From assembly GCF_018141425.1 (NCBI RefSeq), contig NZ_CP058561.1:2294001-2358000 (forward strand): a DNA stretch of 64,000 bases, written 5' to 3'. The translations under genes and the position numbers were made by a program. Shown piece after piece: positions 20,724-42,162 of this stretch. The number at the start of each line of letters is the position of its first letter. Position 1 is the stretch's first letter. The DNA comes from Vallitalea guaymasensis. GTDB lineage: Bacteria > Bacillota > Clostridia > Lachnospirales > Vallitaleaceae. Below the pieces are notes generated by a model that saw only the letters and a list, made by a program, of their open reading frames with translations, had not been told where the DNA came from and did not search any database.

Positions 20724-20793
20724 ACCTACTAAGTATCTAATTTGGGTTTTCTATCAAAAACCTAAAATTACCATAGCCATCAGTCATGCCAAT

Positions 20794-20975
20794 CAGAAGA
20801 AAAAGTGTTTTGTAACCCTATTAACGGTTACTTAAAGCAAAAGAGTATATGTATATGTGGAGTAGTGAGGCAGGACGCCGAACCCAGCAGTTTGCTCAGG
20901 ACGAGCAATTTCGCTGGCGTAACATATACATATACTCTTTTGCAAAAACCAAGTCCGAACAAAACACTTTTTCTG
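20794..20975 (-). repeat. Palindromic repeat element, copy A
   Basis: Outer inverted arms at 20794-20813 and 20959-20975 enclose perfect 22-bp inner arms (20837-20858 and 20922-20943) and a 63-bp GC-richer core. The core can fold as nested hairpins: CGCCAGC opposite GCTGGGTTCGGCG, and TTGCTC opposite GAGCAA around GTCCT (read on the minus strand). It is inverted relative to copies at 39.5 and 42.0 kb. It occupies the gap between the TrpA-like gene and the uracil-DNA glycosylase gene. Short ORFs across it are translations of the repeat. Confidence 0.9.
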
Positions 20976-21026
20976 ACATACATGCAATAATCTTTCCAAA
21001 AATACCTTAATGATACCCCCAATCTA

Positions 21027-21055
21027 TTTCCAACCTCATAAATATCTGATATAAT
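21027..21055 (+). promoter_or_regulatory. Promoter of the uracil-DNA glycosylase gene
   Basis: TTTCCA (21027-21032) and TATAAT (21050-21055) are 17 bp apart, ending 34 bp before the ATG at 21090. A GTGAGGCG site precedes the start. Confidence 0.6.
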
Positions 21056-21089
21056 AATCTCATCAAGAACATTGTGAGGCGAAAATAGA

Positions 21090-21644
21090 ATGTTAGATTG
21101 GAATGAACTTGAAAAAATATGTAATAATTGCACAAGATGCAATCTATATAAAACCAGACATCACATGGTATTCGGCAAAGGAGATATCAATACAAACCTA
21201 ATGTTCATTGGTGAAGGTCCCGGTGAACAAGAGGATTTAACCGGTACCCCCTTTGTAGGAAAATCAGGTCAGCTATTCGATAAAATCCTAAAAGCGGTAG
21301 ATATAACTAGAGAAGAAATATACATAGCTAATATTGTAAAATGCAGACCACCTAGAAATAGAAATCCCCTTGAAAACGAGAAAAACGCCTGCTTACCATA
21401 TTTAAGATATCAAGTTAAACTGATTCAGCCGAAAATAATAGTATGCCTTGGACGAGTATCCGCCCAATGTATCATAGACAAAAACTTTAGGATTACACGA
21501 GAACACGGAAATTGGGTTGAACGAAAAGGATATAACTTAATAGCAACCTACCATCCTTCTGCCCTATTACGTGACCCATCAAAAAAGAAAGATGCCTGGG
21601 AAGATTTCAAGAAAATCAAAGAAAAATATGTTGAAATTAGTTAA
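21090..21644 (+). CDS. Uracil-DNA glycosylase, family 4 (iron-sulfur)
   Basis: The 184-residue protein has CNNCTRC near residue 11-17 and further cysteines in IVKCRPPRNR and NACLPYL, which together bind the [4Fe-4S] cluster of family 4. GEGPGEQED is the uracil/water-activating motif and HPSALLRDP the DNA-intercalation loop. It removes uracil from DNA to start base-excision repair. Length is normal. It has its own promoter and stands alone between the repeat element and a convergent gene. Confidence 0.93.
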   Translation: MLDWNELEKICNNCTRCNLYKTRHHMVFGKGDINTNLMFIGEGPGEQEDLTGTPFVGKSGQLFDKILKAVDITREEIYIANIVKCRPPRNRNPLENEKNACLPYLRYQVKLIQPKIIVCLGRVSAQCIIDKNFRITREHGNWVERKGYNLIATYHPSALLRDPSKKKDAWEDFKKIKEKYVEIS

Positions 21645-21659
21645 CATAAAACTCATCAA

Positions 21660-21690
21660 AAAGGGACTGTCCATTAAAACAGTCCCTATA
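21660..21690 (-). terminator. Terminator between convergent genes
   Basis: GGGACTGT (21663-21670) pairs with ACAGTCCC (21679-21686) around an 8-nt loop. The T-run (CCCTTTTTG) is on the minus strand, ending the metallo-hydrolase transcript; in the plus direction the tail is weaker. Confidence 0.85.
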
Positions 21691-21712
21691 ATATAATACT
21701 ATCACATCAATA

Positions 21713-22579
21713 CTAACAAATATCTAACCCATCATATGCAACTACAACCTTATAATCAGTCTTGTCAAATGTATCCTGAAGCTCTTGGTGCATCAGATCA
21801 TGTGAATGGCTCATATGAGTAGCATATATCTTAGTATTCTCATCTATAAAATTCCTTTTCTTAAACTCATCAAGCATCTCTAAATACCCTTTGATATCTA
21901 AATGAGAACCCGCTCTTTTACCTTTATTCTTACTATCAGTTGTACAACATTCCATTATTACATAATCCATTTTACCTTCTAGATGTTCAAATGTTTCATC
22001 TGGATAATATCCTGTATCAGATGCATATAATACCTTAACACCATTTTTAAATGTAAAAATATAATTTATACTCTTTTCTCCTTCACCATATGCATCATGA
22101 TTACCTTTAAGAGTATAGATTTTCATATCACCTACTTCATAATTCTCAAAATAATCTAGAGGAATAAAATTAACATACTGTGACTCTGTAGACTCATTAA
22201 ATGGACTTGTCCTCATGGCTGCATATAATTTTTCCATATAACCATAAGCTGGTTTACTCAAGTATACATTCAATTTCTCACGCCCTTTGGCTCCTCCATT
22301 TTTATGTGCATGTGAAATATTCAATAACTCGTTCAAGCTGAAATGATCCTCATGACTATGTGTTATAAAAATATTCTTCAATTTATATAATTCCAGTTCG
22401 AATTTCTGGGATTGGGCATTAATATCTTGTCCTATATCTATTAGATTATTTTCATCAAGAAGAAAAGAAGCTCTCATCCTGATATCTTTTCCTTTTCTTT
22501 TCCTTGCTTCCATACAATGAGCACATTGACAGTGCAGATTAGGGATTGAATCAGCTGCTGATGTTCCTAAAAATTTCAT
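21713..22579 (-). CDS. PhnP-like metallo-beta-lactamase-fold phosphodiesterase
   Basis: The 288-residue protein begins MKFLGTSAADSIPNLHCQC and continues AHCMEARKRKG, like the cysteine-rich zinc-structural start of PhnP. ITHSHEDHF near residue 72 is the HxHxDH metal site, with further ligands in ASDTG and the C-terminal ATHMSHSH. PhnP opens cyclic ribose phosphates; family members also cleave other phosphodiesters. It follows the sugar isomerase gene by 42 bp, so both are probably co-expressed and act on a phosphorylated sugar. ATG 22579 has TAGGAGGTAG. Substrate is inferred only from the family. Confidence 0.82.
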   Translation of the reverse strand: MKFLGTSAADSIPNLHCQCAHCMEARKRKGKDIRMRASFLLDENNLIDIGQDINAQSQKFELELYKLKNIFITHSHEDHFSLNELLNISHAHKNGGAKGREKLNVYLSKPAYGYMEKLYAAMRTSPFNESTESQYVNFIPLDYFENYEVGDMKIYTLKGNHDAYGEGEKSINYIFTFKNGVKVLYASDTGYYPDETFEHLEGKMDYVIMECCTTDSKNKGKRAGSHLDIKGYLEMLDEFKKRNFIDENTKIYATHMSHSHDLMHQELQDTFDKTDYKVVVAYDGLDIC

Positions 22580-22621
22580 TTTAGCTACCTCCTATGTCGT
22601 AGTAATTATATATTAGTTAAT

Positions 22622-23572
22622 CTATAACTCATCTAATTTGTTTTTTAATTGCTCTACACCAGTTTTTATCATATCAGAAGTATTGTTTTTGCTTAATTCC
22701 AATACTTTTATAGGAGCCAAGTCTATTATATCCAGGTAATTATCAAGCTTATTACTAACTGAATAAGGTGCTAGATGATCCAAGAATCTGTCATCAACAT
22801 CATGTATATGTACTCCCAACAATTTATTCCTATACTTACGAAGCACTTTAAACCCATCAAAAACTCCTAATTGATTAAGCATTTCACCATGTCCAATGTC
22901 ATACCATACATAAACTGGTTCATCTGTCAATCTATCAAAAATCATTCTATACTCTTCTTCGTCAGGCATCTCATGATACATTGCCCTATTTTCCAAACCT
23001 AACTTAACATGTATATTCTTTTTAAACATGTAATCACAAATTTCTTCTAAACTCTCAATAATCAATTCAGTCTGTCTTTTACTTTTTTTCTGCCTAATAG
23101 CCATAGCTACATTACATGTATCCTTATATTCCTTAGAATCCATACCATATTTTAAAAATACTCTTCTTAACTCTTTGTTATAATACTCATCATCCTCTGG
23201 GCATACAATTATCTTACTTGAGTGGATAACCACTCCTTTTGCACCTAACGCTTTGGCATATTCAATTGTTCTTATGGTATAATCTATAGCCTGTTTCCTC
23301 TTATACTGGTCTTCAAAACCTAACAATATGGATGATGGACCATATTCTTCAGATGCTTTGGGAAACACATTATGTAAACTAGACACTTTCATTTCTCCAG
23401 TTTCCAATAATGGATACATCTCTCTAAGTGTTTGTTCTGTTACATTATAATTTAATTCAACTTGGTCAAAACCCAAATCTTTAATTTCATGCAGTATATC
23501 ATATCCTGTAATATTTTTTTCTTGAGCTTTATGCCCATTCCAAGAAGTTGAACAAGAAAAATTATATTTCAT
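22622..23572 (-). CDS. Sugar phosphate isomerase/epimerase-family TIM-barrel protein
   Basis: The 316-residue protein has the AP endonuclease 2/xylose-isomerase-like barrel: FDQVELNYNVTEQ near residue 33, GAKGVVIHSSK near 110, KLGLENRAMYHEM near 190 and VWYDIGHGEML near 220. Glu, Asp and His at these strands bind a divalent metal. It would interconvert or epimerise a sugar or inositol-type polyol. The gene follows the AraC regulator by about 140 bp on the same strand and precedes the PhnP-like gene. ATG 23572 has GAGGGAAATT. Confidence 0.85.
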   Translation of the reverse strand: MKYNFSCSTSWNGHKAQEKNITGYDILHEIKDLGFDQVELNYNVTEQTLREMYPLLETGEMKVSSLHNVFPKASEEYGPSSILLGFEDQYKRKQAIDYTIRTIEYAKALGAKGVVIHSSKIIVCPEDDEYYNKELRRVFLKYGMDSKEYKDTCNVAMAIRQKKSKRQTELIIESLEEICDYMFKKNIHVKLGLENRAMYHEMPDEEEYRMIFDRLTDEPVYVWYDIGHGEMLNQLGVFDGFKVLRKYRNKLLGVHIHDVDDRFLDHLAPYSVSNKLDNYLDIIDLAPIKVLELSKNNTSDMIKTGVEQLKNKLDEL

Positions 23573-23711
23573 AATTTCCCTCCATTAGATTCTTTTCTGT
23601 AATTTTTATATAGAAGCACTATCTTTTACAATTGATGTAGTGTCATTTTTATGTTTTATATTAATATTATAAATGTTTTTCATTTTCCAAACATGGTCTT
23701 TTCTGTTTTAA

Positions 23712-24566
23712 TTATGGTCTATTCTGCTTTCTATATTTTGATGGTGAGACACCAAATATTTTTTTGAATTTCTTTGAAAAGTACAAAGAATCATTATAAC
23801 CTAATTTATAAGCTATCTGATTTATATTAAGATCACTACTTGTTATCATAGTCATGGCTTCATTCATTTTAATACTCTCAATAAACTGCAAAAGTGTTAG
23901 TTCTGTGATATCTTTGAAAATATGAGATAAATAGTCAGATGAGACATTGCAATTATCAGCTATCTGTTTTACTGTCAACTTTTGAAATTTATTTAGCTTA
24001 ATATATTCCACTGCCTTTTTTACAAGTGTATTCTTGTAACCAAATCTATTAGGATTTTTATCCTCTACAATATTCAGTATTCTTCTTACTCTCCAAACAA
24101 GCTCTAAAATGATGGCTTCTACTATTTGCTTAGCACCAGATTGCTGATTCTCTAATTCTAGAAGAATCTTTTCTATGAGTTCAATTACATCTTTATCTAC
24201 ATTTCTTATTAATTGTAATCCTGAATCATCTAATTTTATCTTATTATTATATCTGAACTTTAGATATATGAACTCAATAGGTTCACTATAACTTATCTCT
24301 TTATGCTTTTGCTCTGGTTGTATAAAATAGAAATCCCCTTCATGTGCAACAAATTCTTCCCCGTCACACCAATATTTTATACTTCCCTTTTTTACATATA
24401 TGTATTCATGGGAATGGTGCATATGCTCATAAAAACTCCACTTTTGATCAGATTTCACACAACCTATTGCTACAAAATCCGGTATGGTATATAACTTAAC
24501 ATGTCTATCGTCCAATTCATATACAGTATTATGAGTAGCAGATTGCTCATTATCATTTATCTTCAC
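23712..24566 (-). CDS. AraC-family transcriptional regulator (cupin sensor)
   Basis: I placed the start at GTG 24566 and not ATG 24644, because GGATGGAGG lies 7 nt before the GTG and nothing lies before the ATG. The 284-residue product has a cupin domain at about 25-110 (HSHEYIYVKKGSIKYW) and an AraC double helix-turn-helix at about 185-280 (SSDYLSHIFKDITEL, DSLYFSKKFKKIFGVSPSKY). It likely controls the downstream isomerase and PhnP-like genes and perhaps the importer operon upstream. A terminator separates it from the binding-protein gene. Confidence 0.88.
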   Translation of the reverse strand: MKINDNEQSATHNTVYELDDRHVKLYTIPDFVAIGCVKSDQKWSFYEHMHHSHEYIYVKKGSIKYWCDGEEFVAHEGDFYFIQPEQKHKEISYSEPIEFIYLKFRYNNKIKLDDSGLQLIRNVDKDVIELIEKILLELENQQSGAKQIVEAIILELVWRVRRILNIVEDKNPNRFGYKNTLVKKAVEYIKLNKFQKLTVKQIADNCNVSSDYLSHIFKDITELTLLQFIESIKMNEAMTMITSSDLNINQIAYKLGYNDSLYFSKKFKKIFGVSPSKYRKQNRP

Positions 24567-24644
24567 AATATAACCTCCATCCAATATGCATTTAATCTCA
24601 TTATATACTATTAGAAAATGACTCTTCAAGTATTCATCAAACAT

Positions 24645-24696
24645 AAAAAAATATTAAGGGACGCTCATTTTTGTATAAACTTGTCCCTTAAATATT
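24645..24696 (-). terminator. Terminator of the sugar ABC importer operon
   Basis: AATATTAAGGGAC (24650-24662) pairs with GTCCCTTAAATATT (24683-24696) apart from one bulge; on the minus strand TTTTTTTATG follows. It lies just behind the binding-protein stop at 24706. Confidence 0.88.
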
Positions 24697-24705
24697 AATT
24701 CTATA

Positions 24706-26067
24706 TTATTTACACTGTTCCTTCAACCAATCCTCTGCTTCTTTTTGAGCATTGTTCAAAGCTTCTTCTGGACTCATTTCTCCTAATAATGCTTTTTCAA
24801 CGTTGGTAGCCAGGATATAACGTGGTTGACCAGAACGATATGGATAACGAGGTGTCCATAACAAACTCATAGACCTTAACATGACATCCATCTGTGGAAC
24901 AGCTTTGATACTCTCCCATTCTCTAGCTGATTTTAGGACAGGAAGAGCCATATATTCATCCCATAGATATTTTTGGTAGTATTCACTTCCAGTAAATTTC
25001 AAATACTCCCAAGCAAGTTCTTTATTTTCACTGGCTTTTCCAATAGAACATGGACTTCCCGAAAACGCCTGACCCATACCTTTATCTGGATTCACAAAAA
25101 GTAAAGCAGCATCATAACGGTCTCCCAATCCAGTTGAATAGATGGCTTTCATAAAACCAGGAGCAGTTCTTATATTCATAGCTATATTATTATTCTCTTT
25201 TAGGAATAATTCACTTCCTTGAGATGACAAAATACCTCTTGGTGCATAGTTAAGTGCTTCTTTTGTATAATTTAATGCTTGTATCATCTCTTTTGAATTG
25301 AAATTGATTTTCATATCTTTCCATAAGAAACCACTTCCCCATGTACCCCCAAGTGATTCACTAATATTCATTGCAACATCGGAAGCATACTTTCCTCTAA
25401 AGATAATCCCGAAATTTTGTTCTCCTGTAACGGGATTTTTACCTGTCATTTTTTTTGCTTTTTCAAGTATCTCATCAATACTTGGTGATTCAGATAGATA
25501 TTCAACTCCCCAATCGTCAAATAATTTTTTATCATATACTATTACTCTTGTATCCCCCAAAACAGGCAAACCATATATTTCTAAATTTTCATCACTGGAA
25601 CTCATGGCTTTCCATCCATCAATTTGACCATCAATATATGCATCCAGATCATATTTATCCTTTTCTATGTATGAAGCCAAAGGTTCTAATAAATCTTGAG
25701 AAGCAAAATTGGAGATTCCTGGTACTTGATATACATCTGCTTCCCCAGACATTAACATAGCTTGAGTTTTTTGTTGATAACTGTCCCATCCCATCAAGAC
25801 AAATTCAACTGTAGCACCAGGATGTGTTCTTTCGAACTCTTCTTTCAATACATGAACCCCTTTAGTTTTTGTTCCTGAAACGGGATCTGTTGAATCTTTC
25901 ATTTTGAATTCACCTATCATCTGGACTTTTACAGTTCCTGACCATTGTTTATCTTCAACCCCATCTTTATTGACTTGTTCATCATTATTATCTTTTGAGC
26001 CACATCCAGTTAGAAACGTAGTCATTAACAATATTGCTGATAAAATTAATGTTATTATTTTTTTCAT
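24706..26067 (-). CDS. Sugar ABC transporter substrate-binding lipoprotein, paralogue 1
   Basis: The 453-residue protein has a lipobox LTGC with lipidated Cys22, then a family 1 extracellular solute-binding fold with ATMSGEAD-like core segments (KTQAMLMSGEADVYQVPG) and conserved tryptophans toward the C-terminus. It is very similar along its whole length to the second binding protein at 27357-28754, by eye about three quarters identical, so the pair arose by duplication. The phosphohydrolase gene sits between them. It would capture an oligosaccharide for the MalF/MalG-type permeases. No ATPase gene is in the operon, so a shared MsiK/MsmX-type ATPase elsewhere is expected. Confidence 0.92.
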   Translation of the reverse strand: MKKIITLILSAILLMTTFLTGCGSKDNNDEQVNKDGVEDKQWSGTVKVQMIGEFKMKDSTDPVSGTKTKGVHVLKEEFERTHPGATVEFVLMGWDSYQQKTQAMLMSGEADVYQVPGISNFASQDLLEPLASYIEKDKYDLDAYIDGQIDGWKAMSSSDENLEIYGLPVLGDTRVIVYDKKLFDDWGVEYLSESPSIDEILEKAKKMTGKNPVTGEQNFGIIFRGKYASDVAMNISESLGGTWGSGFLWKDMKINFNSKEMIQALNYTKEALNYAPRGILSSQGSELFLKENNNIAMNIRTAPGFMKAIYSTGLGDRYDAALLFVNPDKGMGQAFSGSPCSIGKASENKELAWEYLKFTGSEYYQKYLWDEYMALPVLKSAREWESIKAVPQMDVMLRSMSLLWTPRYPYRSGQPRYILATNVEKALLGEMSPEEALNNAQKEAEDWLKEQCK

Positions 26068-26168
26068 GAAATTCTCCTCCTATTTACCTCTTAAAAATTC
26101 ATTTTTGTCCATCTCCTTGTCAATACCTTTAGTATACTTAAATCAAATTAACCATCCCCTTAACACTA

Positions 26169-27233
26169 TTAATTTTTTTTGAAATAAGCTTTTAGTACAA
26201 TGGCATTATGATCTGATATTTCAATACCTTCACTCTGTTCCATTTGAAATCCAGATAATTCTTTATTACAAAAAATAGTATTTACAACATTTGTTTGATG
26301 ACAATGCATATCTTTGACAAAGAACCAATCCAGATTAAGCAGAAGATCATCTTTACCTATCTTATGTTTTCTACGTGTAAGCTTGCCTTTAACATTAGCG
26401 TTAGTATAATCAAACCCATGTTCTTCAACAGCTTGAAAAATCTCTTCATATAGTTGAGGTGAATATATTCTATCCTTCTCTTTCTCGAAATCAAGATATG
26501 CTTTCTCTACATCCTTCTTGTCGTTACTGTTGAAAGTATTTGTATTCATATCTCCTGCTATGATAACTGGTATATCAGGATAATGCTTATCTGCTTGTTT
26601 TAAGATATAATCCATTTGATTCTTCCTGCCTGTTGATGAAGTCATATTTTCTAAATGAGTACAAACAAGTCCTACTTCATTGTTCCCGACTCTGACTTTA
26701 GTTAATAATGCCATTCTTCCCCCAAGACGTTTTTGATTATCATGAAACCAATCATATTCCAAAGGAAGTCTTATAAGAAAAGAATCCTTTAATTCATAAC
26801 GTGACATAATAGCGTTTCCATGAAAAGCTTCATTGTTTTCACCTGGTACTTTTCTTTCTCTAGAGCCACCTTTAGTCAGTTCCAGAAATTCCACTCCATA
26901 GATATAGTTCATTGATAGTCTGCCAGCAAGTTCCAAGGCAGTATCTTTGTTTCCTGTTCTAATCATCCCTTTATCCAATTCATTGAAGAAAATGATATCA
27001 GCATCTATTAATGCTGGATGATACTTCATGTACGCATCTATTTCCTCAAGGTACTTTCCTCTTTCAGCATTGAATAAAACTAATTTCAAGTAATCCTTTT
27101 TCTCTATGGAATCAAATCTATTAGTGCCTTCAATGTCATTCAACTCCGGAATGATCTCTAGGGCTTCAACACCGGAAGTATCATTTGCTTTATCAATTGC
27201 TAATTGTATTTTTTGAACTTCAATTTTATTCAT
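26169..27233 (-). CDS. Endonuclease/exonuclease/phosphatase (EEP)-fold phosphohydrolase
   Basis: The start is ATG 27233 (MNKIEVQKIQ) with GGAGG seven bases before; the in-frame TTG at 27245 overlaps that site. The 354-residue protein has no signal peptide and shows all EEP motifs: LVLFNAERG (Asn), IIFFNELD (Glu, metal), LVCTHLEN (His), IIAGDMNTNTF (Asp/Asn) and ISDHNAIV (Asp-His). The fold hydrolyses phosphodiesters or phosphomonoesters of lipids, inositol phosphates or nucleic acids. Because it sits between two sugar-binding-protein genes in an import operon, a small phosphorylated glycan or glycerophosphodiester is more likely than DNA. Confidence 0.85.
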   Translation of the reverse strand: MNKIEVQKIQLAIDKANDTSGVEALEIIPELNDIEGTNRFDSIEKKDYLKLVLFNAERGKYLEEIDAYMKYHPALIDADIIFFNELDKGMIRTGNKDTALELAGRLSMNYIYGVEFLELTKGGSRERKVPGENNEAFHGNAIMSRYELKDSFLIRLPLEYDWFHDNQKRLGGRMALLTKVRVGNNEVGLVCTHLENMTSSTGRKNQMDYILKQADKHYPDIPVIIAGDMNTNTFNSNDKKDVEKAYLDFEKEKDRIYSPQLYEEIFQAVEEHGFDYTNANVKGKLTRRKHKIGKDDLLLNLDWFFVKDMHCHQTNVVNTIFCNKELSGFQMEQSEGIEISDHNAIVLKAYFKKN

Positions 27234-27250
27234 TATGTCCTCCAATAATT

Positions 27251-27311
27251 AAGGGGCTGTCCCGTAATACATCTATGGTGATAAATATTTGTATAATGGA
27301 TACAGCCCCTT
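27251..27311 (-). other. Intercistronic hairpin between binding protein 2 and EEP genes
   Basis: AAGGGGCTGT (27251-27260) pairs with ACAGCCCCTT (27302-27311) around a 41-nt loop. The T-run is strong only on the plus strand (CCCCTTTTTAC). On the minus strand it is a partial terminator or mRNA-stabilising stem, similar in position to the one at 11731-11804. Confidence 0.75.
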
Positions 27312-27356
27312 TTTACAGATTATATTATGTTTTTATTAATAAGTTATTGTTCTATG

Positions 27357-28754
27357 TTATTTTTGCTGCTCTTTAATCCATTCTTCTGTTTCTTTTTGAG
27401 CATTGTCTAGAGCTTCTTCAATTGTTGCTTGCCCTAATAACGCTAATTCAACATTAGATGCTAATATTGATTTTGGTTGTGCAGAACGGTAAGGATAACG
27501 TGGTCCCCATAATCTACCCATTGCTTTTAATACTACTTCCATCTGTGGTACTGCTTTTATATGTTCCCACTCAGTAGCTGATTTTAACACTGGAGCTGCC
27601 ATGTACTCATCCCATAGATATTGTTGGTAGAACTCACTTCCAGTGAATTTTAGGTACTCCCAAGCTAACTCTTTGTTTTCACTGCTCTTTCCAATTGCAC
27701 ATGGGCTACCTTCAAATACTCCACCCATTCCTTTTTCAGGATTTACAAAAAGTAAAGAAGCACCGTATCTCTCATCTAATCCATTTGAATAAATAGGTTT
27801 TAAGAATCCAGGACCTATTCTTAATGTCATTCCAATATTATTATTTTCAGTAAGGAACAACTCGTTTCCTTGCTCTGATAAAATTCCACTTGGAGCATAT
27901 GCTACAGCATCTTTCAAATATTGTACTCCTTTTTTCATTTCTTCAGAGTTAAAGTTGACTTGAAGATCCTTGTATCTGAAACCAGTTCCCCATGTTCCAC
28001 CAAGAGATTCACCAATATTCAATGCAAGGTCAGAAGCATATTTACCTCTAAAATATAGACCATAGTTTTCTTCACCTGTTACAGGATTTTTACCTGTCAT
28101 CTTAGCCGCTTTTTCCATGATTTCATCTATAGTAGGCTCTTCTGAAAGGTATTCAACTCCCCAATCATCAAATATTTTCTTGTCATACACGATAACTCTT
28201 GTATCTCCCAATACAGGTACACCATATATCTCTAAATCTGAATCTTCAGGACCCATTGCCTTCCATCCATTAATTTGTCCGTTGATATATTTCTCTAGGT
28301 CATAATTTTCATTTTCAATATAAGGTGCTAGTGGTTCTAACAAACCTTGAGCTGCAAAACTTGCTATACCTGGTACTTGATATACATCAGCTTCACCAGA
28401 CATTAACATGGCTTGTGTTTTTTGTTGATAACTATCCCATCCCATTAATACATATTCTACTTTTGCACCTGGATGAGTTCTTTCAAATTCTTCTTTCAAA
28501 AGATGTACACCTTTTGTTTTAACACCTGAAACTGGATCAGTTGAATCTTCCATCTTGAATGAACCGATCATCTGAACTTTAATAGTTCCTGACCATTCTT
28601 TTTCATCTGCTACATCTTTGCCAGTATCATTATCTGTACTATTGTCAGTTGTTGTACCATTATCAGTTTTATCATTATCTTTTGATCCACATCCAACTAA
28701 AAATGTTGACATAGTCAATACTACAATAAGAATTAAAGCCATAATTTTTTTCAT
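27357..28754 (-). CDS. Sugar ABC transporter substrate-binding lipoprotein, paralogue 2
   Basis: The 465-residue protein has a lipobox LVGC (Cys22), an Asn/Thr/Asp-rich linker and the same family 1 binding-protein body as the paralogue at 24706-26067. Examples shared by both are DSYQQKTQAMLMSGEADVYQ and the C-terminal WGPRYPYRSAQP/WTPRYPYRSGQP region. The longer linker and scattered substitutions suggest divergence in ligand range. It follows the MalG-type permease by 58 bp and would be the primary binding protein. ATG 28754 has AAGGAGGAAG. Confidence 0.92.
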   Translation of the reverse strand: MKKIMALILIVVLTMSTFLVGCGSKDNDKTDNGTTTDNSTDNDTGKDVADEKEWSGTIKVQMIGSFKMEDSTDPVSGVKTKGVHLLKEEFERTHPGAKVEYVLMGWDSYQQKTQAMLMSGEADVYQVPGIASFAAQGLLEPLAPYIENENYDLEKYINGQINGWKAMGPEDSDLEIYGVPVLGDTRVIVYDKKIFDDWGVEYLSEEPTIDEIMEKAAKMTGKNPVTGEENYGLYFRGKYASDLALNIGESLGGTWGTGFRYKDLQVNFNSEEMKKGVQYLKDAVAYAPSGILSEQGNELFLTENNNIGMTLRIGPGFLKPIYSNGLDERYGASLLFVNPEKGMGGVFEGSPCAIGKSSENKELAWEYLKFTGSEFYQQYLWDEYMAAPVLKSATEWEHIKAVPQMEVVLKAMGRLWGPRYPYRSAQPKSILASNVELALLGQATIEEALDNAQKETEEWIKEQQK

Positions 28755-28812
28755 AATTCTTCCTCCTTATTTGTGTTGGTATTTAGTCACGAGATGTTTT
28801 CCTTCATCTCTA

Positions 28813-29667: not shown

Positions 29668-29708
29668 CTTCTACACCTTCTTAGATATTTTTTAGTTTGT
29701 ACATTATA

Positions 29709-30587: not shown

Positions 30588-30675
30588 TTTAACCATACTC
30601 CTTTTTTGTGCTTTAGATAAATTACCTAAGTACCTCTTATGATAATTTTTTGTAGAAATACATTTAAATATTACA

Positions 30676-30689
30676 TGATATCGATACCA
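30676..30689. promoter_or_regulatory. Auxiliary LacI-type operator in the importer leader
   Basis: TGATATCGATACCA is a near-perfect palindrome around CGAT, of the same class as the spacer operators at 30848, 35077 and 41934. Its centre is 172 bp from the main site, suitable for looping or road-blocking. A weak promoter (TTGAAT, 17 bp, TATCAT) overlaps it on the minus strand. Confidence 0.55.
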
Positions 30690-34176: not shown

Positions 34177-34206
34177 GTATTATTCCTCCCAGTCGAATTC
34201 CCATAA

Positions 34207-34238
34207 GGATGTACCTCATAACTTTATCAAGTACATCC
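34207..34238 (-). other. Hairpin between phosphatase and mannosidase genes
   Basis: GGATGTAC (34207-34214) pairs with GTACATCC (34231-34238) around a 16-nt loop, with no T-run behind it on the minus strand. It is probably an mRNA-stabilising stem and not a terminator. Confidence 0.6.
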
Positions 34239-34251
34239 CTATGTCAACTAT

Positions 34252-34956: not shown

Positions 34957-35006
34957 AATATTCTCCTTTCACATATTTAATTTTTCACTTCTAAAAGCAA
35001 ATATTA

Positions 35007-35020
35007 TGGTATCGTTTCCA
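35007..35020. promoter_or_regulatory. Auxiliary LacI-type operator before the phosphatase/mannosidase operon
   Basis: TGGTATCGTTTCCA lies in the transcribed leader, its centre 70 bp (about seven helical turns) from the spacer operator at 35077-35090. The sequence has the same TGG(A/T)ATCG(N)TTCCA pattern. Confidence 0.65.
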
Positions 35021-35070
35021 ATACGCATAATATTTAACTAATTAATTTTAAAAATTCTTTATTTACTTAT

Positions 35071-35099
35071 ATTATATGGAATCGCTTCCATATTGTCAA
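35071..35099 (-). promoter_or_regulatory. Phosphatase/mannosidase promoter with LacI operator in the spacer
   Basis: Minus-strand TTGACA (35094-35099) and TATAAT (35071-35076) are 17 bp apart. TGGAAGCGATTCCA (35077-35090) fills the spacer next to the -10 box. A bound repressor would directly exclude RNA polymerase. The LacI gene ends only about 80 bp upstream. Confidence 0.88.
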
Positions 35100-35172
35100 T
35101 AACTTCATCGTAAGTTTAGAACAGAAAAGTGAATTATTAATATTTTACAAAACATCAATATTCATTATAGAA

Positions 35173-36177
35173 TTATACTTTTTTACAACTATCTCTAACA
35201 ACTAATTCATGATTAACAATTACTTCATTAACCAATGTCTGTTGTTTATTTATCTTTTGAATAAGCATCTCAACAGCCATTGTACCCATTTCTTTTATTG
35301 GTTGCTCCATAGAAGTTAATCTTGGACGTACAATATCAACCACAGCTGTGCCATCAAAACCTATTACCGATATATCATCTGGTACCTTCAATCCATTATC
35401 CTTAATACAATTGATTGCTCCCACAGCCATATCATCACTGGCAGCAAAAACTGCTGTTGGAAGTTTTTTGCATTTTAGGATTTTATTCATTATAGAATAC
35501 CCATCTTGTAAACTGTAATTACCAAATTCAACATATTCTTCAACTAATGGTATTTTATTGTTTTTTAATGCATTTCTATAACCATTGTATCTCTCTTGTC
35601 CAGAAGTGATATCTCGTCTATCTCCCCCAATGAAAGCTATCCTCTTGTGACCTAGACTGGTTAGATATTCAGCAGCATCATAAGCCGCTTGATAATTATT
35701 TACAACTATAGCTATATGCTTTTGATTACTAGGTTTAGCACTTGCAAAAACAATAGGTATATTGATGCTTTCTAAAAAGTCTCTAGTTTTATCATCTATC
35801 TTTTCATTGGTTATTATGATACCGTCTACTCTCATCTCTTTGAAAATATTTAGATATTTATATTGTTTATCTAGATTTTCAGCCATATTACAAACTATGA
35901 TATTATAATTATTCTTACTTGCTGTCTCTTCTATTTTGCTCAAAATAATTGAATTGACACTAGCCGTAATATTAGGAACTATGACAGCTAATAAATTGGT
36001 CTTTTTCAATACTAAACTTCTAGCTATAAAACTAGGCGAATAGTTCAGTTCTTCTATGGCTTTTTTAACTTTTTCTTTTAATTCATCACTGACATATTTT
36101 CCATCATTTAGAACTCTAGATACTGTTGTAACTGAAACACCTGCTTTTTTTGCTACATCTTTTATCTTTACAGCCAT
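35173..36177 (-). CDS. LacI-family transcriptional repressor
   Basis: The 334-residue protein has the LacI helix-turn-helix at 1-50 (IKDVAKKAGVSVTTVSRVLN), the hinge helix near 50-60 (SPSFIARSL), and a periplasmic-binding-type effector domain (GDRRDITSGQERYNGYRNAL, SVIGFDGT). It most likely binds the CG-centred palindromes at 30848, 35077 and 41934 and their auxiliary copies. The ligand would be a sugar from the mannoside route. ATG 36177 has AGGAGGAGAA. Its own promoter carries a different palindrome, so it may not be strongly autoregulated. Confidence 0.93.
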   Translation of the reverse strand: MAVKIKDVAKKAGVSVTTVSRVLNDGKYVSDELKEKVKKAIEELNYSPSFIARSLVLKKTNLLAVIVPNITASVNSIILSKIEETASKNNYNIIVCNMAENLDKQYKYLNIFKEMRVDGIIITNEKIDDKTRDFLESINIPIVFASAKPSNQKHIAIVVNNYQAAYDAAEYLTSLGHKRIAFIGGDRRDITSGQERYNGYRNALKNNKIPLVEEYVEFGNYSLQDGYSIMNKILKCKKLPTAVFAASDDMAVGAINCIKDNGLKVPDDISVIGFDGTAVVDIVRPRLTSMEQPIKEMGTMAVEMLIQKINKQQTLVNEVIVNHELVVRDSCKKV

Positions 36178-36222
36178 TTATTCTCCTCCTATCCCCTAAT
36201 ATTTTTTTCACTATATTATGAA

Positions 36223-36251
36223 ATTTTATCATAAATTGAACTGTTGTTCAA
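36223..36251 (-). promoter_or_regulatory. Promoter of the LacI gene
   Basis: TTGAAC (36246-36251) and TAAAAT (36223-36228) on the minus strand are 17 bp apart. A small dyad, TTGAAC/GTTCAA around TGTT (36236-36251), overlaps the -35. Further upstream, an imperfect inverted repeat spans about 36298-36358 without a clear terminator tail. Confidence 0.55.
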
Positions 36252-36381
36252 TATAGTACCTTGTTTAGGTCAAAATAAAATCTTTTTTTGACATACTTAT
36301 ATATATATTGAACTTATAAAAATGGGTGTATATACGTTTAAGTCCAATATATATAATTTAATCAAAATTTATTCTTTATAT

Positions 36382-37086
36382 TTAGTAAAAGTTTCCTGCT
36401 AATCCAGTAAATGAACATTCAATTCCAGCTTCATATAAATGAGATGTATCTCCAAATCCTATACATCTAGGTACAGCCCATTCCTCTGATCTTTCCTCGA
36501 ATAGGATAGTTGTCACAGAAGATGTTTTAATAAAAAAGCTTGCCCAGAACATAGGTAATGGAATATTAAGTAAATGGGCAATCCATGTTCGTCCAAACCC
36601 TCCATGACAGAAAACAGCTACTTTCTCTGTATTAGAGTTCAATATACGATATTTGTTCCCAACTCTCTCATATCCTAATTGCTTTAGAAACATATCTGAC
36701 TCTTCTTGTATTTCAGTAAATTTTTCTCTAGCTTTTACATCTTTTATTATCGGTAGATTATGCCAATCTTCCAGGGTCAAGTAAGATGATTCTTCAAAAA
36801 TTACTTCTCCAGGTAAATTCCAAGCTGGACAATCTTCTATATTGTCATTAGTTATTGGCATTCTTGGTATTTCCTGGGTCCATTCAAGTATTTCTGGTTT
36901 AATCTTCATTAAATCAGCAGTATACTTCATTGTATCAATGGCTCTACCTAATGGTGAGCAATATATCTTAGTGATACCTTCTTTGTCAAGCTTTCTAGCT
37001 AAAGCTTTTGCTTGTTCATGACCATATTCCGTAATGGTATGATTCTTGTAATCTGGTTCTGCATGACGAATAATATATAATCTCAT
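36382..37086 (-). CDS. Histidine phosphatase, paralogue 2
   Basis: The 234-residue protein has the same length and layout as the phosphatase at 34252-34956: MRLYIIRHAEPDY, YCSPLGRAIDTMKYT and FCHGGFGRTWIAHLL, and an almost identical C-terminus (PRCIGFGDTSHLYEAGIE). The paralogues flank the LacI gene. This copy follows the MATE pump gene by 47 bp on the same strand and lacks a LacI-type operator. ATG 37086 has GGGAAGGTG. The two may have separated in regulation more than in chemistry. Confidence 0.9.
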   Translation of the reverse strand: MRLYIIRHAEPDYKNHTITEYGHEQAKALARKLDKEGITKIYCSPLGRAIDTMKYTADLMKIKPEILEWTQEIPRMPITNDNIEDCPAWNLPGEVIFEESSYLTLEDWHNLPIIKDVKAREKFTEIQEESDMFLKQLGYERVGNKYRILNSNTEKVAVFCHGGFGRTWIAHLLNIPLPMFWASFFIKTSSVTTILFEERSEEWAVPRCIGFGDTSHLYEAGIECSFTGLAGNFY

Positions 37087-37133
37087 CTTTTCACCTTCCC
37101 GTATTAATTGTATAGATTAAATCCCCTTGCATA

Positions 37134-38489
37134 TTACCACTTCAATAATTGTTCTTCATATATTTTCTTGATTGATACCAATACAACTACGATACCAACA
37201 ATCTCTGCTAAAACAAATGAAACCCATACTCCGTCCAAACCAAATAATTTACCCAAAATGAACGCTCCAGGCAATAATACCACTAATTGTCTTAGGATTG
37301 AAACAATCATACTGATATATGCTTTTCCCATCCCTTGAAATGCAGTACCACACATTATGGAAACTGCGGCCAGAGGAAATACATAGCTGATAATCCTAAA
37401 TGCTGGAACTCCAATTTTCATCATTTCATCTGAACTGTCAAACAGCTCTAACAGCTGTGCGGGTATTATTTGGAATACCAAGAATCCTAGTGTCATATAC
37501 ACAACTGCAGCGATAATACCAAGTTTCAAAGCTTTCATTAATCGCTTTCTATTCTTAGATCCATAATTATATCCAATTATAGGCATGACTCCTTGAGACA
37601 ATCCAAAAACAGGCATAAATATAAGTGATTGAAGCTTATAGTAAACTCCTAGAACCGTAACTGAAGCCTCTCCAAATCCTGCAAGAATCAAATTCAATCC
37701 AGTAACCATGACTGAGCCTATTGCCTGCATTATTGTAGCTGGTAATCCAACCTGCATTATTCCTTTTAGAATCTTACTATCATATTTGAATGTTCTGAGA
37801 TTCAATTTTACACTATTTTGCTTAGTAAATAGAACTATCAATATATAGACCATAGATAAAATTTGAGCTGATATAGTAGCAATGGCCGCTCCTTTAACTC
37901 CTAATGCTGGAAATCCCAAATATCCAAATATAAGGATTGGGTCTAAAATAATATTGAATACAGCTCCACATAACTGTGATATCATTGGATGAATCATATT
38001 ACCGCTACCTTGTAGGATACTTGTTCCTGCTTGAGCCAGTAATCTACCAAATGAGAATATCATTATTATCTTTATGTATTCAGTTCCTAAGTTAATGATA
38101 TTTTGACTATCTGTAAATAATGTGAAGAAACTGTTGGCAAACAAGATACCAATTAATAAAATGATTACATATAAAACTATACATAGAAGTATACCATGTT
38201 CAGCCGCATTAGATGCTGCTTCATGATCTTGTTCCCCTAATTTCCTTGATATAAGTGAATTAATTCCTATTCCAAGCCCCACAAAGCAAGCAATTATTAT
38301 TAATTGTATAGGAAATGCTAGTGATACAGCTGTTAATGCATCATCACTTACTCTTGAAACAAATACACTATCTACTATATTATATAATGCTTGGACTAAC
38401 ATAGATAATATTGCTGGTATTGACATGGAAACCATAAGCTTAGATACTTTCATAGTACCCATCTTGTTCTCTTTAGTATTATTATTCAT
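37134..38489 (-). CDS. MATE-family efflux transporter
   Basis: The 451-residue protein has twelve hydrophobic segments in two homologous halves and the MATE family pattern (LYNIVDSVFVSRVSDDALTAVSLAFP near residue 30, QPIIGYNYGSKN-like VMPIIGYNYGSKNRKR near 285). It would export a cationic drug or metabolite by Na+ or H+ antiport. A clear promoter lies upstream and the histidine phosphatase follows. ATG 38489 has AAAGGAAAAG. No substrate evidence is visible. Confidence 0.93.
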   Translation of the reverse strand: MNNNTKENKMGTMKVSKLMVSMSIPAILSMLVQALYNIVDSVFVSRVSDDALTAVSLAFPIQLIIIACFVGLGIGINSLISRKLGEQDHEAASNAAEHGILLCIVLYVIILLIGILFANSFFTLFTDSQNIINLGTEYIKIIMIFSFGRLLAQAGTSILQGSGNMIHPMISQLCGAVFNIILDPILIFGYLGFPALGVKGAAIATISAQILSMVYILIVLFTKQNSVKLNLRTFKYDSKILKGIMQVGLPATIMQAIGSVMVTGLNLILAGFGEASVTVLGVYYKLQSLIFMPVFGLSQGVMPIIGYNYGSKNRKRLMKALKLGIIAAVVYMTLGFLVFQIIPAQLLELFDSSDEMMKIGVPAFRIISYVFPLAAVSIMCGTAFQGMGKAYISMIVSILRQLVVLLPGAFILGKLFGLDGVWVSFVLAEIVGIVVVLVSIKKIYEEQLLKW

Positions 38490-38562
38490 TGCGACGACTT
38501 TTCCTTTCAGTATGGCTATATTATAAACAAAGCAAATACTATTTTTTTATTCTGTAAAATTC

Positions 38563-38591
38563 AGTTTAGTAGTTTTAGATAGAAATGTCAA
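38563..38591 (-). promoter_or_regulatory. Promoter of the MATE/phosphatase operon
   Basis: TTGACA (38586-38591) and TAAACT (38563-38568) on the minus strand are 17 bp apart; transcription would begin about 65 nt before the ATG. Confidence 0.7.
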
Positions 38592-38614
38592 CTATGTTTT
38601 TAACAACTTCCAGT

Positions 38615-39340
38615 TTACTTATTTATAATTAACAGGGTTCCCAGAACAAACATTAAGACAATAACTATTTTATGTAATATTACACTATTTATTTTCTGGA
38701 ACATGCTCAACCCAAGCAGATTTCCAATACTAGTACCTATTCCTCCAAATAGCGCAAAAATTATTATTTCCTTATTGATATTTCCATATACAATATGCAT
38801 AACTACAATCATCATTGATCTAATTAAGAAACTGAATTCTAGAGTTGCTTTGTAGGACAACCTGTTTTTGATTCCGTATAAGTAATATACGACCAAAGGT
38901 GGTCCACCAACATTGAACATTCCGCTCATAATTCCACTTAATGAACCTGCTATAATTCCATTTTTTACATTAGTCTTGATTTTTATTTCTTTTCTACTTT
39001 TTATAAATAGGAAAATGGAAATAGAGACTATAGTGATTCCAAGAATTCTTTTTAATATATTTTCATTTCCAAAGACCAACAGACGCACTCCAATAGGTAC
39101 AAGTGCTAATGAAGATATTAGAGGTACCATGGCTATTTTGTAATCAATATGTTTTCTGAACTTAAAGACAACATAAGTACCCATAAAAAAGGTTTGCATA
39201 CCTGTTACTATGGCTGCCACTTTTAGAGGCATGATAAAGGGAAGAAAAAACATAACAAACATTGCAAAACCGAATCCTGATAAACCTTGAATTAAACTGC
39301 CGCCGAAACAAATCATTAAAGTCAATATTTTTTCTGTCAT
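38615..39340 (-). CDS. TSUP (TauE/SafE) family permease
   Basis: The 241-residue protein has about eight hydrophobic segments, the GGSLIQGLSGFGFAMF glycine-rich start and GSLSGIMSGMFNVGGPPLV repeat in the second half, hallmarks of TauE/SafE sulfite/organosulfonate permeases. It probably moves a small organic acid, sulfonate or sulfite. Its gene stands alone between the MATE promoter and repeat copy B. ATG 39340 has GAGAGAACC, a moderate site. Confidence 0.88.
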   Translation of the reverse strand: MTEKILTLMICFGGSLIQGLSGFGFAMFVMFFLPFIMPLKVAAIVTGMQTFFMGTYVVFKFRKHIDYKIAMVPLISSLALVPIGVRLLVFGNENILKRILGITIVSISIFLFIKSRKEIKIKTNVKNGIIAGSLSGIMSGMFNVGGPPLVVYYLYGIKNRLSYKATLEFSFLIRSMMIVVMHIVYGNINKEIIIFALFGGIGTSIGNLLGLSMFQKINSVILHKIVIVLMFVLGTLLIINK

Positions 39341-39474
39341 AAGGTTCTCTCCGTATTTTAGTATTTATAGTGTTATTATTGTTTTTTAGTTATTACTATT
39401 ATACTAAAATATATCATGTTTTGACCTTTTTGGCAAAAAGGTTAATGTGAGATTTAATATTGTACCAGTAGGTC

Positions 39475-39652
39475 GGAAAGAATGTTTTGTTCTGACGTGG
39501 GTTTTGCAAAATAGTATATGTATATGTTTCGCCAGCGGAATTGCTCGTCCTGAGCAAACAGCTGGGTTCGGCGTCCTGCCTCACTACTCAACATATACAT
39601 ATACTATTTTGCTTGTAGTCCCCTTCAATTTTAATCACAAAATATTATTTCC
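39475..39652 (+). repeat. Palindromic repeat element, copy B
   Basis: Perfect 22-bp inner arms (39506-39527 and 39591-39612) enclose the conserved core: GTTTCGCCAGC, TTGCTCGTCCTGAGCAAA, then AGCTGGGTTCGGCGTCCTGC. Outer arms at 39475-39490 and 39637-39652 are more degraded than in A and C. It fills the gap between the TSUP gene and the glycerol-1-phosphate dehydrogenase gene. Similarity to copy C continues about 20 bp beyond the right arm, up to a TTGGCTATTT-like sequence. Confidence 0.9.
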
Positions 39653-39684
39653 TCTTTGAGAATTATTGTTGGCTATTTCATACT

Positions 39685-41022
39685 TTATATAGAAGCAAAT
39701 TCATCTAGCAATCCTACATCCCACAAAAGCTGTAGTACTGTATATCTTGCTCTTAGTTCTTTAGCTATCTTTATGCTGTCTGAGACTGTGGTGGAATCTA
39801 CTTCTACTTGGTTTGGGGTTATGGTGGCTCCTACTTTAAGGAGTATGGCTTTTAGTTCTTCTGTAGGGGGGATGATATCTTTTATTGTGTCAATTATTTC
39901 GTCCCAGTTTTGGTTTATTTTTTGTATTCTTATTTTATGTTCTTCTTTGGAATTTTTGTTGGTTTTTTGTTCTAGTTTAATAACGTCATTGGCGGCGTGT
40001 TTATATTTTTGTTTTATATTTTTAACCCAGTCATTGTAGTCAAATTCCTCTGCGTGTTTTAGTGCTTTTTCAAAGTCTAGATTGGTGTTGGTAAGCATTT
40101 CGTATAGTTTGGCAATGATAAGGGTGGCTATACCTACTTTTGTGCCATGGAGTACTGCTTCTTTGCCCTGGAATAGAAACATCATTTCCCAGTAGTGAGA
40201 TAGGTGATGTTCGGCGCCTGAAGCTGGTCTTGAATTTCCTACGAAACTCATAGCAATACCAGATAGTATCAGGCCTTCAGTTAGATTTTTTATGGCGATT
40301 GTATCTCTATTTTTAATGCCTTCTATATCTTTAACACATCTGTGTATAGATTCTTTTACTAGGTCTACGACGCTTTCACAATAGTATTCATCGTTTATTA
40401 TTGAACTTATTTTCCAGTCACACAGACATGTATATTTACCTAATATATCTCCTAATCCAGCAGTTATCATTTCCATAGGAGCTTTTTTTATTATATTTAT
40501 ATCTGCTATTATGGCTTTTGGTGAATTGACTTCGTATGTGGTTTTTAGGTTATTTACTATTAGGGGTGATACAGTTGAGGCGTATCCATCCATAGATGGT
40601 GCTGTAGCTACAATAAAATATGGAATATGTATCTTATAACTTACGAATTTTGACAAATCATTCAGAGTACCAGAACCTACTGTTATCATCAGGTCTATAT
40701 TATCATCAATATTAGTTAGAAGTCTTCCTACAGCTTGTTCATCAGGTACTAATTGATTGGTTTCTTCAAAAACATAGGACGTACAACTGATTTGGCTATC
40801 TTTTAATATTTTTTCTACGGTTTCTCCTAGTACTTTATAAGTATTGGAGTCTGAAACGATTAGTATATTCTTATAGCCGTATTTATTAATGAGTTTTGGT
40901 AATTCAAGGGTTACATTTTCCCCTATTAGTATTTCTTCAATAGATGTTCTGTGTACTTTATTACAATTGCATTTAAAGCTTTTGTTAAGAAAATCCTCAA
41001 TCTTGAATGTTTTAAAGTCCAT
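39685..41022 (-). CDS. sn-Glycerol-1-phosphate dehydrogenase (AraM/EgsA family)
   Basis: The 445-residue protein has the NAD(P) motif TVGSGTLNDLSKF near residue 115 and the family-specific APSMDGYAS segment. Metal ligands are in AGLGDILGKYT (Asp), AEHHLSHYWE (His) and VLHGTKVG (His). Bacterial members make glycerol-1-phosphate, the archaeal lipid enantiomer, from dihydroxyacetone phosphate; in Bacillus it feeds heptaprenylglyceryl phosphate. The C-terminal ~90 residues are a helical extension rich in Lys and Glu. The glycerophosphodiesterase gene lies 134 bp upstream but is separated by a terminator. Confidence 0.88.
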   Translation of the reverse strand: MDFKTFKIEDFLNKSFKCNCNKVHRTSIEEILIGENVTLELPKLINKYGYKNILIVSDSNTYKVLGETVEKILKDSQISCTSYVFEETNQLVPDEQAVGRLLTNIDDNIDLMITVGSGTLNDLSKFVSYKIHIPYFIVATAPSMDGYASTVSPLIVNNLKTTYEVNSPKAIIADINIIKKAPMEMITAGLGDILGKYTCLCDWKISSIINDEYYCESVVDLVKESIHRCVKDIEGIKNRDTIAIKNLTEGLILSGIAMSFVGNSRPASGAEHHLSHYWEMMFLFQGKEAVLHGTKVGIATLIIAKLYEMLTNTNLDFEKALKHAEEFDYNDWVKNIKQKYKHAANDVIKLEQKTNKNSKEEHKIRIQKINQNWDEIIDTIKDIIPPTEELKAILLKVGATITPNQVEVDSTTVSDSIKIAKELRARYTVLQLLWDVGLLDEFASI

Positions 41023-41094
41023 GATTTGCCCTCCATTGTAAGATTATTATACTTCATATTTTTATTTTCTTTATAACTCTATTTTACATATTTA

Positions 41095-41132
41095 TTCAAA
41101 AAAATGAAAGAGCTTTTACCCTTTCATTTTTA
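41095..41132 (-). terminator. Bidirectional terminator after the glycerophosphodiesterase gene
   Basis: AAATGAAAG (41102-41110) pairs with CTTTCATTT (41121-41129). T-runs flank it on both strands; the minus-strand run is seven T. Confidence 0.85.
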
Positions 41133-41156
41133 TAAGTTTAATCCTATAATGGATTC

Positions 41157-41888
41157 TTATTTACTTAATATATTCTCTTTTATATGTTTTAGTGTATTGA
41201 TTTTATTTGTTGTTATTGAATATACTCCTAGTTCTATATATTTTTCCATGTCACATTCATTATCTATAGTCCAGACTGCTACTGGTAAAAATCTGGAATG
41301 GAAGTACTTGATTATTTCCTCATTGCAATATTTGTAGTCAATATTTATTCCACAACAAGACATGGAATTGGCTTCATTACAAATTTCTTCTATTATTGAT
41401 TGTTGATTAAAATCTTCTTCGCTTAATGAATTGGTATCTACATTTAGTAGATATTGGAATTGTGGATAGTTATTATATAGATATATTGCTTTTTCTTTTT
41501 TGCAACCAGAAAGGATTACATGATTATTCATTTTTTCATAATTTACCAGTGCTGCTATGGAATCAATGGCATCTAATGATTTTATATCCAAGTTAAGTAC
41601 TATATTATATTGTTGTGCTATATCTAATGCTTCCAATAATGTTACCATCTTATTGTTGATATGTTTTTCTAGGTCTTCAAAAGTGGTTTCATTAACTTGT
41701 ATTTGTTCATCCTGTATAGTATTTATTGAAGGATCATGAATTAATATTGGCACACCGTCTTTTGTGGCTCTTACATCGACTTCAATAATATCTGCACCTG
41801 TTTCTATTCCTTTCATTATTGATTCAATTGAATTTGGTACTGTATTCATACAACCTGCATGTGCTGTAATTAGTGGTAATCTGCTCAT
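41157..41888 (-). CDS. Glycerophosphodiester phosphodiesterase
   Basis: I chose ATG 41888 (MSRLPLITAHAGCMNTVPNS) because AGGAGGAG lies 7 nt upstream; the longer frame to 41963 runs through the promoter. The 243-residue cytoplasmic protein has the GDPD motifs HAG(C), EVDVRATKDGVPILIHDP (metal-binding Glu and Asp, catalytic His) and LNLDIKS. It hydrolyses a glycerophosphodiester to glycerol phosphate and an alcohol. The usual HRG reads HAG (HAGC). The gene is under a LacI operator identical in position to those of the mannosidase and importer operons, which links it to that route. Confidence 0.92.
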   Translation of the reverse strand: MSRLPLITAHAGCMNTVPNSIESIMKGIETGADIIEVDVRATKDGVPILIHDPSINTIQDEQIQVNETTFEDLEKHINNKMVTLLEALDIAQQYNIVLNLDIKSLDAIDSIAALVNYEKMNNHVILSGCKKEKAIYLYNNYPQFQYLLNVDTNSLSEEDFNQQSIIEEICNEANSMSCCGINIDYKYCNEEIIKYFHSRFLPVAVWTIDNECDMEKYIELGVYSITTNKINTLKHIKENILSK

Positions 41889-41927
41889 TTTTCTCCTCCT
41901 AGAAGATGTTTGTCTATTATTAATATA

Positions 41928-41956
41928 ATTATATGGAATCGATTCCAGATTGTCAA
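41928..41956 (-). promoter_or_regulatory. Glycerophosphodiesterase promoter with perfect LacI palindrome in the spacer
   Basis: Minus-strand TTGACA (41951-41956) and TATAAT (41928-41933) are 17 bp apart; TGGAATCGATTCCA (41934-41947), a perfect 14-bp palindrome, fills the spacer. The leader to ATG 41888 is only about 33 nt. Repeat copy C begins about 30 bp upstream of the -35. Confidence 0.9.
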
Positions 41957-41985
41957 TATGCATTTGGTTTACTGTACAGGTAAGT

Positions 41986-42162
41986 CAGAAAAAATATTTT
42001 GTTCTGACTTGGTTTTTGCAAAATAATATATGTATATGTTTCGCCAGCTACTTGCTCGTCCTGAGCAAAAAGCTGGGTTCGGCGTCCTGCCTCACTACTT
42101 CACATATACATATATTATTTTGCTTGAAGTAATCTTGGATATAATCACAAAACATTTTTTCT
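41986..42162 (+). repeat. Palindromic repeat element, copy C
   Basis: Outer arms (41986-42002 and 42147-42162) differ by one base; inner arms of 22 bp (42018-42039 and 42102-42123) are perfect. The core is almost identical to copy B and to the reverse complement of copy A. The remaining gap to 42388 has no gene; it holds only a weak stem, TTGTTGC (42238-42244) with GCAACAA (42266-42272). Confidence 0.9.

Follow-up and report, generated by a model that had tools for sequence, protein, structure and literature searches.

Why should three copies of one long palindrome carry different letters in their arms and still pair perfectly within each copy? The question is raised by a stretch of 64,000 nucleotides of the Vallitalea guaymasensis genome (contig NZ_CP058561.1, positions 2,294,001 to 2,358,000), called the window below, in which an initial annotation described three nested palindromic elements. 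The answer preferred here, with a probability of about 0.6, is that the copies are dispersed RNAs of the TwoAYGGAY type (Rfam RF01731), which would act as a distributed decoy for the regulator CsrA.

The repeated unit and its fold

The three copies are real. The inner arms (stem P1) are 22 base pairs (bp) long without a mismatch in any of them, and their letters vary between the copies while matching within each, as the initial annotation had it. The enclosed cores measure 63, 63 and 62 bp and, again as described, are richer in G and C than their surroundings (57-59%, compared with 31-36% in the flanking 500 bp to either side and 32.5% across the window). The extent of about 180 bp given to the repeats was an underestimate, and the longer units are listed below. 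The two hairpins proposed for the core are present; they are not nested: they stand next to each other in a three-way junction, which the long stem closes. All three copies belong to P1 subfamily A, are of the short form and are co-directional with both neighbouring genes. Their parts are as follows.

20774..20986, plus strand: copy 1, whole subfamily-A unit (TAGCCA ... TGCA), short form, with ends taken from the conservation profile of 53 copies
20837..20943, plus strand: copy 1, P1 stem (22 + 22 nucleotides, 0 mismatches) and 63-nucleotide core, model match L165
20869..20879, plus strand: copy 1, hairpin 1, GGC-AGGAC-GCC, with a CsrA-type loop and GA on either side, from the sequence and from pair and loop counts
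20884-20888 with 20913-20917, plus strand: copy 1, stem P2, which carries hairpin 2, read from the sequence
20892..20908, plus strand: copy 1, hairpin 2, TTGCTC-AGGAC-GAGCAA, with a CsrA-type loop, atop P2, from the sequence and from pair and loop counts
39463..39675, minus strand (the RNA strand): copy 2, whole unit, short form, with conservation-profile ends located in the window
39506..39612, minus strand: copy 2, P1 stem and core with two GGA-loop hairpins, model match L166
41975..42186, minus strand (the RNA strand): copy 3, whole unit, short form, with conservation-profile ends located in the window
42018..42123, minus strand: copy 3, P1 stem and core with two GGA-loop hairpins, model match L167

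Two further observations concern the surroundings of copies 2 and 3. A block of about 2.9 kb (39440-42380), which holds the open reading frames 39685-41022 and 41157-41963 together with these two same-direction copies, is absent from the matching place in the related genomes G005 and G003, which indicates a composite-like insertion or a loss. Adjoining copy 3, at 42223-42358, lies a different interspersed repeat, about 130 bp in length, which is matched many times in G005, G003 and G004.

The element extends far beyond the window. A diverse covariance model applied to 85 stretches of the same genome (5,626,074 bases, or 5.6 Mb; G000 below) gives 84 distinct matches, of which 83 are near complete. 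The stretches comprise 78 loci from whole-genome BLAST and covariance-model searches, with matches merged by hand and antisense echoes dropped, and 7 loci recovered through their insert. The set of 83 leaves out the 55-nucleotide mini copy L195 and duplicates; the genome's model matches do not include the half copies L150 and L153 or L243, which is truncated. L150 and L153 (G000, 1172403 and 1263886) hold the 3' half of the unit only, the 5' part being swapped for other sequence. The near-complete copies comprise 52 short and 31 long forms, a tally made from 84 rows after one antisense row of L201 with shared coordinates had been removed by hand.

There are two main P1 families, A (GCAAAATAGTATATGTATATGT and variants) and B (...AGTATAGGGGAATAT), whose membership varies with the rule of assignment (53 and 25, or 49, 25 and 9). 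The subfamily-A unit begins with TAGCCA and ends near TTGCAA, and conservation falls sharply at both ends (53 copies). Its length, taken from 49 copies, is 209-224 bp in the short form and 268-278 bp in the long form, with one mini copy of 159 bp; L195 and L250 are internally deleted.

On one strand of all 83 near-complete copies the 22-bp P1 closes a three-way junction that carries two hairpins. Hairpin 1 has a stem of 3 bp and the loop AGGAC in 52 copies, ATGGAC in 27, ATGGAT in 2 and AGGAT and ACGGAC in 1 each. Hairpin 2, on P2, reads CAGGACG in 54 copies, CATGGACG in 19 and CACGGACG in 10. Each of the two loops fits A(N)GGA(C/T) in 83 of 83 copies, mostly in the 5-nucleotide AGGAC form and not in the 6-nucleotide AYGGAY form. 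Hairpin 1 is flanked on both sides by GA, as a tandem G·A would need, in 82 of the 83 copies and in 23 of the 24 sequences of a diverse alignment (A3); judging by this position, the G·A pairs probably form. The GGA-loop strand of copy 2 (191 nucleotides with the outer arms) is predicted to fold at -62.9 kcal/mol (z -7.2), and none of 200 shuffles was as good.

Covariation, strand and possible transcription

The initial annotation proposed a structured RNA family with compensatory change, and covariance-model alignment of the copies retains the covariation. Neither of the two outcomes that it named as speaking against its proposal, copies confined to the window and an alignment without covariation, occurred. 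In 32 subfamily-A copies (21 distinct), 99.9% of the pair cells are standard, and two-sided changes occur at 8 of 36 pairs against a shuffled mean of 0.8 (0 of 500 shuffles reach the observed number). In the 24 copies from several genomes, two-sided changes occur at 29 of 36 pairs against a shuffled mean of 17.4 (again 0 of 500), and 97.5% of the cells pair, compared with 34-46% when the partners are slid; this alignment (A3), like another one (A4), was made by fitting to a model and is biased towards the structure of that model.

A base pair that reads G·U on one strand becomes an A·C mismatch on the opposite strand, and one-sided departures from Watson-Crick pairing therefore carry information on the strand. 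When 73 distinct rows are read on the GGA strand, they hold 2419 Watson-Crick, 34 G·U, 4 A·C and 44 other cells; counted as column types, there are 19 G·U against 3 A·C. This excess favours selection on an RNA. In folds restricted to P1 and the core, 68 of 83 copies are more stable on the GGA strand.

The same counts bear on a different explanation of the arms, namely that their identity is kept by a DNA process, such as hairpin-templated correction or gene conversion between copies, and not by selection on the fold. The arms are long and perfect, the elements are near-identical between two species where the adjoining upstream DNA differs, and an internal module described below comes and goes with few linked changes, all of which would suit such a process. 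It predicts no preference of G·U over A·C, however, where 34 to 4 is observed, and it leaves the invariant loops unexplained. As the whole explanation it is very improbable; it may act in addition.

The surroundings of the copies are largely intergenic, as 76 of 78 loci overlap no gene predicted by a purpose-made hexamer scorer. Relative to the RNA strand, the upstream and downstream neighbours are both on the same strand at 39 of the 78 loci, both opposite at 21, divergent at 10 and convergent at 8, and at 51 of 78 loci the element is on whichever strand is G-rich in that half of the chromosome (a hand sum). One might suppose that each copy is a cis-regulatory leader controlling the gene directly downstream. 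In Rfam, RF01731 carries the type Cis-reg; at 49 of 78 loci the copy and its downstream gene share a strand, and the three copies in the window agree with such a role in their direction. Yet both neighbours are on the other strand at 21 loci, the downstream gene is convergent at the 8 further ones, and the distance to the downstream start varies widely. The gene orientations weaken the strict form of this reading, which is given a low probability, and a uniform leader function of the copies is unlikely.

Own transcription of the copies is plausible, judging from a box upstream of the unit. A TATAAA-like sequence ends 6-16 nucleotides before TAGCC in 33 of 49 copies, compared with 16 and 12 in control windows and with a mean of 17 and a maximum of 26 in 200 composition shuffles. 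At the other end, 43 runs of at least five T start 20-39 nucleotides after P1 in the 53 subfamily-A copies, and 3 such runs are found in the 25 copies outside this subfamily. A reading of these runs as terminators was rejected because they sit in the outer arm, which is able to pair with the 5' arm.

Spread of the unit and its exchangeable module

The high copy number and the sharp ends of the unit recall a selfish DNA element of the miniature inverted-repeat transposable element (MITE) or repetitive extragenic palindrome (REP) type, two labels that the initial annotation had offered, the second as a REP-like structured RNA family. The palindromes would then matter as DNA or single-stranded DNA recognized by a transposase acting in trans, and the likeness to an RNA would be a relic or incidental. 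The two ends of the unit are imperfectly similar to each other, and the internally deleted copies L195 and L250 also count in favour of this reading. One site is also occupied in a second species (genome G005) and empty in G000; the two differ there by about 320 bp, including some DNA outside the unit, and the difference may have arisen by insertion or by deletion. The flanking duplications that the annotation proposed to look for are missing. The 49 subfamily-A copies give no signal of a target-site duplication (the best offsets yield 2-4 matches among thousands of combinations), and there is none at the one occupied and empty pair. Since the G·U to A·C ratio on one strand and the invariant A(N)GGA loops, which match a known RNA family, also speak against this explanation, it is considered unlikely, and less improbable than the leader. 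Judged on unit ends, flanks and one variable site, the MITE label is supported in part, by the sharply bounded unit and by that site; the REP-like label is not the best fit, the closest kind being the TwoAYGGAY RNA, which shares its Rfam clan with CsrB.

The long form differs from the short one by about 64 bp between P2 and hairpin 2, a module that is predicted to fold into two further hairpins. Eight orthologous pairs between G000 and G005 were tried and seven could be aligned (L043 was left out). Four of the seven differ by the module, the long form being in G000 at three and in G005 at one, and the remaining three agree in their module state. The same module is found at the same place in subfamily B. 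It is exchanged in one piece, whether inserted, excised or converted. In one orthologous long-form pair of subfamily B (L248 and L251), a hairpin of the module has AGAC/GTCT in place of the GGAC/GTCC of most copies; the change, noticed by eye, is compensatory.

CsrA and the comparison with known systems

By combining these observations it is possible to sketch how the copies might work. Each copy would encode, on the GGA-loop strand, an RNA of the TwoAYGGAY type, in which a long lineage-specific P1 closes the three-way junction and presents two A(N)GGA(C/T) hairpins. The two loops could fill both RNA-binding faces of one CsrA dimer; such dimers are reported to take pairs of sites (PMC4333381). 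More than 80 intergenic copies, transcribed from the nearby -10-like box or by read-through, would titrate CsrA as a distributed decoy, and single copies within transcripts could bring the neighbouring transcript under CsrA/FliW control. The units themselves would have spread as short dispersed elements. Of the facts behind this sketch, the fold, its covariation, the loop motif, the preferred strand, the number of copies, the ends of the unit and the variable module at orthologous loci are established; that the copies are transcribed, bind CsrA, act as a decoy and actively move is inferred.

The window's genome has one csrA (a Pfam match), situated between open reading frames whose translations read as fliW and flagellin. 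Among 295 genomes of the order, in 129 genera, model R2 detects the element in 14, from 6 genera, and csrA is present in all 14. From one genus to another, P1 shows no sequence relationship. By eye, L122, L131 (G204), L121 and L129 (G129), copies from a different family of the order, have additional outer palindromic arms outside P1.

A scan with a short pattern gave 50 stretches, 37 of them labelled Vallitalea. A wide taxonomic spread of the pattern was rejected as a reading of the other 13, of which only L260 scored below an E-value of 1e-5; it comes from a metagenome-assembled genome labelled Mollicutes, and its model match is cut by the contig end. Four of the other 12 matched the model weakly (E 0.05-0.9) and eight gave no model match. 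One stretch on a viral contig matched the pattern and was not confirmed by the model, and viral spread was likewise rejected.

Several points weigh against the decoy reading. The complement strand of copy 2 folds as well as the GGA-loop strand (-65.6 kcal/mol, z -7.5), because the copy is a palindrome, and the complement is the more stable strand in 15 of the 83 comparisons of P1 and core. In the diverse set G·U stands to A·C at only 7 to 3; for the excess in the larger set a binomial p of 6e-7 is too optimistic, since the alignment rows are related and a strand-specific mutation could bias the counts. Upstream of the copies there is no -35 peak, and no terminator was found. By eye, the second GGA loop is missing or not intact in 5 of 11 relatives from other genera, among which L130 lacks the first loop as well, and the second loop is lost in 1 of 24 sequences of the diverse alignment. 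Finally, csrA is widespread in the order as a whole, in 177 of 295 genomes and 86 of 129 genera, which makes its presence in 6 of 6 element-bearing genera weak support, and many genomes with csrA have no element.

Kinship with TwoAYGGAY is seen in relatives more readily than in the window. At the gathering level, Rfam has no match in all 64,000 nucleotides; at E-values up to 10, the stretches L001, L030 and L019 give three matches only (STnc490, snoZ5 and ceN93), all outside the element, and a search for tRNA and tmRNA gave none. Of seven loci from relatives, six match RF01731 with scores of 25.7-37.6 bits, all under the cut-off of 43, and with an E-value of 4.2 for the weakest. In genomes of the taxonomic family, RF01731 is found at E-values up to 1 in 9 of 22 and above the cut-off in 2 of 22; one of these two is the window's genome, where only 2 of its own copies exceed the 43 bits, other matches being below. 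In the reverse direction, model R2 recognizes 5 of 14 RF01731 loci given to it (20 were fetched). RF01731 belongs to Rfam clan CL00106, as does Escherichia coli CsrB, which was run as a yardstick and has hairpin loops of the same kind, C-AGGA(U/C)-G. The element is filed as a variant of the TwoAYGGAY-type RNA, not as a proven CsrA sponge.

TwoAYGGAY RNAs have been reported from the human gut, Gammaproteobacteria and Clostridiales (PMC2864571). A later account describes them as predicted, not shown, to bind CsrA, and leaves binding for a future test; there, CsrA-sequestering small RNAs are said to have been identified only in Gammaproteobacteria, and TwoAYGGAY is proposed as the clostridial counterpart (PMC4333381). 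The present genome makes this proposal directly testable, as it has more than 80 copies with a preferred strand, identical loci with and without the module in two species that form a natural comparison, and a csrA beside fliW and flagellin genes. If the decoy reading is true, the family would be an example of an RNA that binds a regulator and spreads in the manner of a repeat. A bolder and rather doubtful extension is that CsrA in these bacteria is buffered by a mobile population of more than 80 binding RNA genes per genome, in place of a single decoy RNA gene, and that these are built from exchangeable parts. The lineage-specific P1 would serve as a clamp for a constant core with its two loops, and the module would be plugged into copies, removed from them and moved from one subfamily to another. 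Copy number would then tune the CsrA/FliW switch, and the mobile element would spread by carrying the binding site of a global regulator.

With the known TwoAYGGAY RNAs the element shares the two A(Y)GGA(Y)-type hairpin loops, the tandem G·A and an external stem without sequence conservation, described as poorly conserved in the published account (PMC4333381). Several copies per genome are also common to both. In the class, 27 of 391 genomes have RF01731 matches above the cut-off, 17 of these 27 with at least two, and multiple copies are therefore a property of the wider family; the searches of many genomes scored at most 13 (order) or 7 (class) candidates per genome, which makes copy numbers there lower bounds. 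The differences here are the number of copies, the outer arms of a defined unit, the pentaloop version AGGAC and the two-hairpin module. A literature search found no mention of high copy number or mobility for TwoAYGGAY RNA, and the copy number, the sharply bounded unit of about 212 bp and the module, variable at 4 of 7 loci and present in two subfamilies, look new.

Among repeats, bcr1-bcr18 of the Bacillus cereus group are likewise dispersed, intergenic and structured, bcr1-bcr3 being MITE-like, and often lie within transcripts; the part of their description that was available does not mention CsrA-type loops, and they are set apart here by description, not by sequence (PMC3446304). REP elements (GTAG- or CGTC-tagged) are also high-copy extragenic palindromes, but they are described as single palindromes of 20-40 bp with an unpaired end tag (PMC3733652), whereas the present unit measures about 212 or 275 bp and forms a three-way junction. 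The small RNAs of the CsrB/RsmZ type share the C-AGGA(U/C)-G loops and the Rfam clan. In CsrB a single long RNA carries many GGA sites; here the putative sequestration would be divided between units of two sites each, distributed over many loci.

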